This document shows, piece after piece, positions 19,129 through 19,668 of a stretch of 24,727 nucleotides of DNA. The stretch covers positions 1 to 24,727 of IMG/VR virus record IMGVR_UViG_3300021364_000383; one strand, given 5' to 3'. The stretch is from a virus. The position numbers and the translations under genes were made by a program. Each line of letters begins with the position of its first letter. Positions within the stretch are counted from its first letter, which is position 1. The notes below the pieces were generated by a model. The model made no database searches, had not been told where the DNA came from, and was given only the letters and a program-made list of their open reading frames with translations.

Positions 19129-19136
19129 GTTAAATA
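19129..19136 (+). promoter_or_regulatory. Possible late promoter upstream of hsp20
   Basis: GTTAAATA matches the late box at 6 of 8 positions. A start 6-7 bases downstream would fall at about 19142, exactly where the first stem of the structured leader begins. Confidence 0.35.
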
Positions 19137-19141
19137 AGTAT

Positions 19142-19201
19142 GTGAGAGGATGAGGGGCGGTTCACCGTCCCACTCTTACGCCAGGATGCCTTCGGGGTCC
19201 T
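19142..19201 (+). ncRNA. Structured 5' leader of hsp20 (candidate regulatory RNA)
   Basis: Three stems can be drawn. P1: GTGAGAG (19142-19148) with CTCTTAC (19173-19179), one G-T pair. P2: GGGGCGG (19154-19160) with CCGTCCC (19165-19171), one G-T pair, TTCA loop. P3: AGGA (19183-19186) and CC (19189-19190) with GG (19195-19196) and TCCT (19198-19201), closed by a TTCG tetraloop. TCCT could instead pair with the hsp20 ribosome-binding site AGGA at 19224-19227, which would make an on/off switch. The 149-base gap 19080-19228 holds this element and no gene. Structure is by eye; no known RNA family is claimed. Confidence 0.5.
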
Positions 19202-19228
19202 ATCGTACACAGTCGCTTATTTAAGGAC

Positions 19229-19633
19229 ATGACTAATATTACTTGGGAAACTTATACCCCTTATTCAATTGGATTCAATGAAACATTCAGCAGACTTGAA
19301 GCTCTCGCAGGAAGTGGATCAAATTACCCACCTTACAATGTTGTCGATGGAGGTAGTGGTAGAACATTACTGGAAGTCGCTCTTGCTGGATTTTCAGGAG
19401 GAGATATTGAAGTCGAGACGGAACGAAATGTCTTGACAGTATCTGCTCGTAAAGCACCACCAGATAAGGAAAGGAAATATCAACATAAAGGAATCTCATA
19501 TAGAACATTCTCACGCAACTGGCAAATGGGAGATGATGTAGAAATTGAAGATGTGAAATTTGAAGACGGACTATTAACAATCACTCTTATCAAAAACTTA
19601 CCAGAGAAACAGAGGCGAAAGAAATGGTTCTAA
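19229..19633 (+). CDS. hsp20: Small heat-shock protein Hsp20 (alpha-crystallin type)
   Basis: 134 aa, IbpA/Hsp20 size. ATP-independent chaperone that holds unfolding proteins. The alpha-crystallin domain spans about 35-125: YPPYNVV, the LLEVALAGFSGGDIEVETERNVLTV-type strand block (key words EVALAGF, LTVSARK), YQHKGISYRTFSRNWQ, and the C-terminal EDGLLTITLIK motif typical of the family. The tail ends EKQRRKKWF rather than the common I-x-I motif, which may affect oligomer size. A ribosome-binding site AAGGA is at 19223-19227. It is a known conserved gene in cyanomyophages, sitting between regA and gp43; the structured leader suggests regulated expression. Confidence 0.95.
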   Translation: MTNITWETYTPYSIGFNETFSRLEALAGSGSNYPPYNVVDGGSGRTLLEVALAGFSGGDIEVETERNVLTVSARKAPPDKERKYQHKGISYRTFSRNWQMGDDVEIEDVKFEDGLLTITLIKNLPEKQRRKKWF

Positions 19634-19644
19634 ATAAAATTGAA

Positions 19645-19668
19645 GGGGACTTGACGGTCCCCTTTTTT
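19645..19668 (+). terminator. Rho-independent terminator after hsp20
   Basis: GGGGAC (19645-19650) pairs with GTCCCC (19657-19662) around a six-base loop, followed by six T residues (19663-19668). It closes the hsp20 transcript. The remaining gap to 19700 is A-rich, with CATAAAAC at 19684-19691, but it shows no convincing promoter. Confidence 0.92.

Follow-up and report, generated by a model that had tools for sequence, protein, structure and literature searches.

A ROSE-like leader RNA before hsp20 in T4-like cyanophages and other phages: a probable RNA thermometer

Does the leader of a cyanophage small heat shock gene contain an RNA switch, and if it does, to what would that switch respond? 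The question is raised by a locus in the window, the whole analysed stretch of 24,727 nucleotides (IMG/VR record IMGVR_UViG_3300021364_000383), which is part of a T4-like cyanophage; among named phages, Synechococcus phage Sf-CH1b is the nearest to it across leader and hsp20 (94.7% DNA identity). The gene order is regA (Pfam PF01818), leader, hsp20 and a terminator-like hairpin, and the features of the window from the promoter-like octamer to this hairpin are assigned to the plus strand. The gene presumed to be controlled, hsp20 (19229–19633), encodes a small heat shock protein of 134 amino acids (Pfam PF00011, HSP20, 54.8 bits, E 1.1e-14), the relatives of which are annotated as Hsp20 in phage Sf-CH1b and many others. 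An earlier note, made from the letters alone, had read the leader as three helices, P1, P2 and P3, and had proposed a possible switch in which TCCT (19198–19201) pairs either with AGGA at 19183–19186 or with AGGA at 19224–19227, in the hsp20 ribosome-binding site. These positions, and the hsp20 start at 19229, are right, and so is the reading of the leader as P1, P2 and P3.

The hairpin that actually sequesters the Shine–Dalgarno (SD) sequence was missed by that first reading. Hairpin II (19212–19228), delineated by conservation and folding, has the form GUC-[G]-CUU(AUUU)AAG-GAC, with the pairs G19212–C19228, U19213–A19227, C19214–G19226, C19216–G19225, U19217–A19224 and U19218–A19223, a bulged G19215 and the loop AUUU. 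Its 3′ strand contains the SD AAGGA (19223–19227), 1 nt 5′ of the start codon, while its 5′ strand carries UCGCU (19213–19217), which matches exactly the U(U/C)GCU anti-SD motif published for ROSE-like RNA thermometers. Such elements comprise two to four hairpins, in the last of which the SD is imperfectly paired with U(U/C)GCU and a bulged G is predicted (PMC11182007; PMC11342760). The hsp20 leader has each of these features: it is the 5′ untranslated region of a small Hsp gene, directly before hsp20, as is also the case in 309 collected leaders and in the covariance model matches; its hairpins are within the published number and the SD sits in the 3′-most one; UCGCU faces AGGA (19224–19227) in an imperfect helix; and G19215 is the predicted bulge within the motif, with a Y-G-C bulge in 86 of 89 non-redundant leaders. 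On these structural and positional features of the sequence, the leader is best described as a ROSE-like element that lies outside both Rfam families and forms a phage lineage of its own.

The comparison rests on Hsp20 relatives collected from viral contigs, by DNA pattern and from named phages, which gave the 309 leaders, reduced to 89 non-redundant ones that span cyanophages, freshwater phages and jumbo phages; a search of the viral contigs with the Hsp20 of phage Paride returned no match. Across the 89 leaders, 91.5% of hairpin II cells are paired, the outer pair being CG in 45, GC in 26 and UA in 3, and the U(U/C)GCU motif is present in 78. The same architecture recurs with different letters in S-SSM7, CUC-[G]-CUU(UUA)AAG-GAG; in the Sinorhizobium jumbo phage Phosso, UCUC-[G]-CU(AUUU)AG-GAGA; in the Pseudomonas jumbo phage Paride, AUCUU-[G]-C(GUAAA)G-GAGAU; and in freshwater-type contigs, AGAC-[G]-CUU(UAG)GAG-GUCU. 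In S-B68 (L375), the hairpin read from the leader is UUUUAC-[G]-CU(UUCG)AG-GUAAAA, where the outer helix has been wholly replaced while the pairing and the bulged G are kept.

Upstream of hairpin II lies hairpin I (19183–19201), the P3 of the earlier note, AGGAU-[G]-CC(UUCG)GG-GUCCU with a bulged G at 19188, which is a conserved Y-G-C hairpin before hsp20 with the general form Y-G-CC(loop)GG-R and shows two-sided changes at six of its seven pairs on the MAFFT alignment A1, which was built without regard to structure. On A1, 87.7% of cells in the two hairpins are paired, compared with 77.7 ± 0.7% when partners are shuffled and 37–63% when they are slid. The covariation score on the same alignment is 0.327 against 0.183, a value reached by none of 500 shuffles. 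Changes on both sides of a pair occur in 116 cells against 49.6 in shuffles, a count inflated by the relatedness of the leaders, and pair types were therefore mapped on the Hsp20 protein tree, where the minimum numbers of pair-type changes are 5 and 3 for two SD-hairpin pairs and 13 and 6 for two hairpin I pairs; tree-aware sign tests per single pair are underpowered, with too few independent pairs. RNAalifold on A1 retains only three SD-hairpin pairs because the variable loops and 5′ flanks are gapped. Folding energy does not exceed chance either over 19129–19260 (z −1.39) or from the predicted transcript start (z −1.32). What goes beyond chance in these sequence comparisons is the conservation and covariation of the leader, not its folding energy. 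The earlier note had made conserved pairing among homologous leaders a test of its proposal, and since that pairing is kept, the proposal survives on this count.

T4 late promoters follow a fixed rule that relates their octamer to the transcript start. By this rule the late-type promoter-like octamer GTTAAATA (19129–19136), which has two mismatches to TATAAATA, predicts a +1 at 19142, exactly where P1 starts, in agreement with the earlier proposal. The box just 5′ of the first hairpin is TAAATA in 41 of the 89 leaders, TATAAT in 30 and another variant in 12, and is absent from six. P1 and P2 together form a 5′-terminal bipartite hairpin (19142–19179) of long-form leaders, with an outer helix (GUGAGAG 19142–19148 with CUCUUAC 19173–19179) around an inner hairpin (19154–19160/19165–19171). 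In 35 distinct long-form leaders, 96.4% of P1/P2 cells are paired against 92.6% in shuffles; the P1 outer helix is 100% paired, and its third pair occurs as GU, GC, AU and CG. Short-form leaders have a single 5′ hairpin in place of P1/P2, and hairpin I is conserved far more widely. A fold of 19129–19260 that pairs TTAAATAAG with CTTATTTAA was judged an artefact and rejected because 19129–19141 precedes the predicted start and belongs to the promoter. At the other end of the gene, the sequence at 19643–19668 reads as a terminator-like hairpin, AAGGGGACTTGACGGTCCCCTT, with a T run after it; a terminator scan places this stem on the minus strand. The hairpin suggests that hsp20 may be a monocistronic unit. 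In several other leaders (L025–L027, L040, L041, L051 and others), a strong hairpin and T run resembling a terminator lie directly 5′ of the hsp20 promoter, which suggests a separate transcription unit. Hammerhead, HDV-like and tRNA-like elements were also considered from the sequence and set aside, ARAGORN having found no tRNA and Rfam no ribozyme.

The proposed alternation of TCCT between its hairpin I partner and the SD did not fare as well as the helices themselves. The complementarity is present in the window, and the pairing shows up in the prediction when only half of hairpin I is left in the folded sequence. Across the leaders, however, only 63.5% of TCCT–SD cells are paired against a shuffled mean of 64.8% (468 of 500 shuffles score as high), two of the four pairs are broken in more than half of the leaders, and the predicted probability of the pairing is at most 0.001 between 15 and 42 °C. 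The anti-SD is instead UCGCU (19213–19217) in a separate 3′ hairpin, which would make the element a melting zipper and not a pair of exclusive pairings, and we regard the chance that TCCT acts as such a switch as negligible. The idea of a regulatory RNA at hsp20 is retained in another form, as a thermometer-type, hsp20-specific element read from sequence.

The specificity of the element for hsp20 was assessed against several controls. A hairpin search for a bulged-G SD hairpin with Y-G-C (score at least 8) scans for that very shape, so that weight is carried by its controls and not by raw counts: it recovers 86 of the 89 hsp20 leaders, none of 54 other SD-bearing genes from two phages, and 69 of 1,780 shuffles. 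Both hairpins together precede 85 of the 89 hsp20 starts; two 50-kb phage segments contain 3,945 ATGs, of which three are preceded by the pair of hairpins, and two of those three are hsp20. A covariance model, R1, built from 71 leaders, matches the window at 19183–19238 with 59.2 bits. In 19 of 21 phage records it has a single strong match, always at hsp20. Four distant phages outside its training set are among those found, namely Phosso (1.2e-9), S-CREM2 (4.5e-8), S-PM2 (1.1e-4) and Paride (1.9e-4); HTVC008M and C48C1 are missed, and recognizable versions can be seen there by eye. R1 also gives minor matches elsewhere in phage genomes, such as G004:59813 with 19.9 bits; these were attributed to chance, and the one that was inspected reads as coding sequence.

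Leaders of this design also occur outside phages. When genome contigs were scanned with a DNA pattern, nine matches resulted, eight of them before hsp20 genes, most of which look like phage contigs in assemblies. L358 (1685–1748), however, has a two-hairpin leader before an hsp20 gene whose neighbours are those of an ordinary bacterium (nadA- and nadC-like genes among them), and two more such hsp20 leaders occur in bacterial assemblies, in L368 (near 1505–1556) and in L371 (minus strand, before the hsp20 start). R1 likewise matches at three bacterial hsp20 genes. Two-hairpin leaders are rare among the 274 class-level genomes sampled. Several contigs filed under bacteria or archaea, namely L355 (a Thermoplasmata MAG chromosome), L354, L356, L357, L359, L360 and L362, have a phage-type hsp20 with the leader; these seven are probably phage contigs that were binned or joined into assemblies.

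The earlier note had found no match to families that it could name, which is correct for the Rfam models and incorrect for the motif, given its fit to the published ROSE-like definition (PMC11182007; PMC11342760; PMC3669281). Rfam ROSE (RF00435) has no match in the window at E values up to 10, a weak search in that no control genome matched this model either. ROSE_2 (RF01832), at E values up to 10 as well, has no match in the window or in the other phage leaders, and the control E. coli ibpA was matched with 100.4 bits; permissive Rfam thresholds returned only noise. Topology nevertheless ties the leader to bacterial elements. E. coli ibpA, CUC-[G]-CUG(AUUU)CAG-GAG in the Rfam ROSE_2 structure, has the same three pairs, bulged G, three pairs and AUUU loop as the window, an identical topology, whereas the remainder of its leader is unrelated. 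The E. coli ibpB leader (L374, MG1655 ibpAB) has a short UUCG hairpin followed by ACUCGCUUC(UUA)GAAGGAG, which is close to the phage consensus ACUCGCUU..AAGGAG. Its 5′ hairpin, unlike phage hairpin I, has no bulged G, and R1 scores this leader at 11.7 bits only, aligned to another hairpin.

Among the bacterial elements, the Pseudomonas ibpA leader consists of two hairpins within about 60 nt, of which hairpin II melts while hairpin I stays folded (PMC3669281). The phage leaders resemble it in length, in the stable 5′ hairpin followed by a U(U/C)GCU–SD hairpin and in the small Hsp gene that they precede (PMC3669281). They differ in that they occur in phage genomes with T4-late-type or TATAAT-like boxes upstream, in that hairpin I also has a bulged G in Y-G-CC/GG, and, in the clade of the window, in the added 5′ bipartite hairpin and an SD–AUG spacing of 1–2 nt. 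The window shares with ROSE-G the bulged G in the anti-SD strand of the SD hairpin (PMC12857270), but in ROSE-G the motif is CUGCU and a second bulged G faces it from the SD strand, whereas the window has UCGCU without an opposing bulge and falls outside that class. Nor is it a fourU element, in which four consecutive U residues pair with the SD, the strand facing the SD here being GUCGCUU.

We consider it likely, from these sequence comparisons, that the leader is a phage-encoded ROSE-like RNA thermometer, one of a phage family of such elements. In such a mechanism, the hsp20 mRNA would begin near 19142 from the late-type promoter, and the stable P1/P2 and hairpin I would fold first, probably insulating the 3′ hairpin and possibly protecting the 5′ end of the mRNA. 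Hairpin II would hold AAGGA in six pairs with one bulged G beside the start codon, blocking ribosome entry at normal temperature, and upon warming the weak bulged helix would open so that Hsp20 is made. In support of this reading, the SD is predicted to be paired more often in hsp20 leaders than in other phage genes (median unpaired 0.19 versus 0.41 at 20 °C, p 3e-7). In unconstrained folding from the predicted +1, the probability of hairpin II falls from 0.93 at 25 °C to 0.74 at 42 °C, and the predicted unpaired SD fraction rises from about 0.07 to 0.21, a modest opening. In-silico melting cannot decide on heat sensing because the E. coli ibpA ROSE_2 element used as yardstick hardly responds to the identical calculation either (0.01 to 0.03). 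Other points also count against the thermometer reading, among them the absence of a match to the Rfam ROSE models and the underpowered sign tests. Marine hosts experience small temperature swings. The distance from GGA to AUG, 5–10 nt (mode 8) in the other GGA-bearing leaders, is 1–2 nt in the 21 leaders of the window's clade, too close for normal SD use, and in this clade hairpin II may block the start codon rather than hide a normally used SD. Within the same clade (19223–19231 in the window, and 20 other leaders), the outer clamp changes from CUC/GAG to GUC/GAC alongside the short spacing.

A conserved SD hairpin could also answer to inputs other than heat. In autorepression, a ROSE-type repressor hairpin would have something other than temperature as its main input: free Hsp20 would bind the leader and repress its own translation, and unfolded or assembling virion protein would titrate Hsp20 away and release the mRNA. 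E. coli IbpA represses its own mRNA via the 5′ UTR in a manner that needs Arg93 (PMC10474464), a late-type promoter and the part in capsid maturation that has been suggested for Hsp20 (PMC3037559) fit a need during normal infection, and both hairpins are conserved in sequence, not the SD hairpin alone. The residue aligned to Arg93 is Arg in 86 of the 89 phage Hsp20s and Lys in the other three. This Arg, however, belongs to a motif shared by small heat shock proteins in general, which makes its presence weak evidence. Autorepression is moreover compatible with a thermometer, both acting on one leader in E. coli, and as a separate explanation we rate it as decidedly unlikely. The broader proposal that the leader family in T4-like cyanophages, freshwater phages and jumbo phages is a proteostasis sensor, with Hsp20 bound to its own leader until the load of virion assembly titrates it away, also appears unlikely; were it true, chaperone supply would track capsid production, either in addition to temperature or in its place.

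Two further readings would dispense with sensing by Hsp20 or by heat. The leader could be a 5′ mRNA stabilizer that also attenuates translation to a constant degree, in which case selection for stability or for a set level of expression would account for its conservation, in keeping with hairpins that start at the predicted +1, with the cUUCGg and UAAC-type tetraloops that are common in hairpin I, and with the stabilizing role suggested for Pseudomonas ibpA hairpin I (PMC3669281). This leaves unexplained the bulged G and the UYGCU against the SD, as well as the coordinated strand changes (CUC/GAG to GUC/GAC to GAC/GUC) and the restriction to hsp20, and it seems to us quite improbable. The strong conservation of hairpin I and the position of regA, just upstream in the window and the upstream neighbour in many relatives, might point to a ligand-binding riboswitch or to a site for another phage protein such as RegA. 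RegA control is unlikely because the element is present even where its neighbour is not regA, as in HTVC008M, Paride, Phosso and the bacterial hsp20 leaders, and a riboswitch is hard to reconcile with about 55 nt of two simple hairpins, with no aptamer-like core and no match to Rfam riboswitch models at gathering level. We give this last reading very little credence, and the ROSE-like thermometer is the interpretation that we prefer.

In the papers found, about three phage RNA thermometers are described, none of them ROSE-like and none at a heat-shock gene: lambda cIII, SPbeta blyA (fourU) and a sigma70 fourU in a gut Caudoviricetes phage (PMC11182007). The hsp20 leader would share with them the leader-borne temperature control of phage gene translation, which for this leader is a proposal; those are isolated fourU or two-state mRNA elements at non-heat-shock genes, whereas the present leader is ROSE-like and found phage-wide at hsp20. 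In the open-access literature (subscription journals were outside the scope), we found no report of ROSE-like elements in phages. Because hsp20 is one of 25 cyanophage core genes (PMC3037559), a conserved thermometer here would give a highly abundant group of marine viruses the means to adjust chaperone supply to temperature through translation. The approximately 89 distinct natural variants form a ready set for studying the evolution of ROSE hairpins, R1 represents a family absent from Rfam 15, and with the leader set one could test directly whether heat, the Hsp20 protein itself or both control phage Hsp20.

Another leader RNA of cyanophages, the manA motif (RF01745), has been reported both from cyanophages and from sites preceding ibpA chaperone genes (PMC2864571). 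It resembles the hsp20 leader in being a cyanophage leader RNA sometimes linked to ibpA, and differs in its 192 positions. The manA model has no match in the window, and its matches in three of the 15 phage records searched all lie away from the hsp20 leader. These manA-family RNAs were located in S-SSM7 (GU071098, 151363–151563), P-RSM1 (HQ634175, 121143–121342) and ACG-2014f (KJ019100, 128634–128844), and the one in S-SSM7 lies about 1.6 kb downstream of hsp20.
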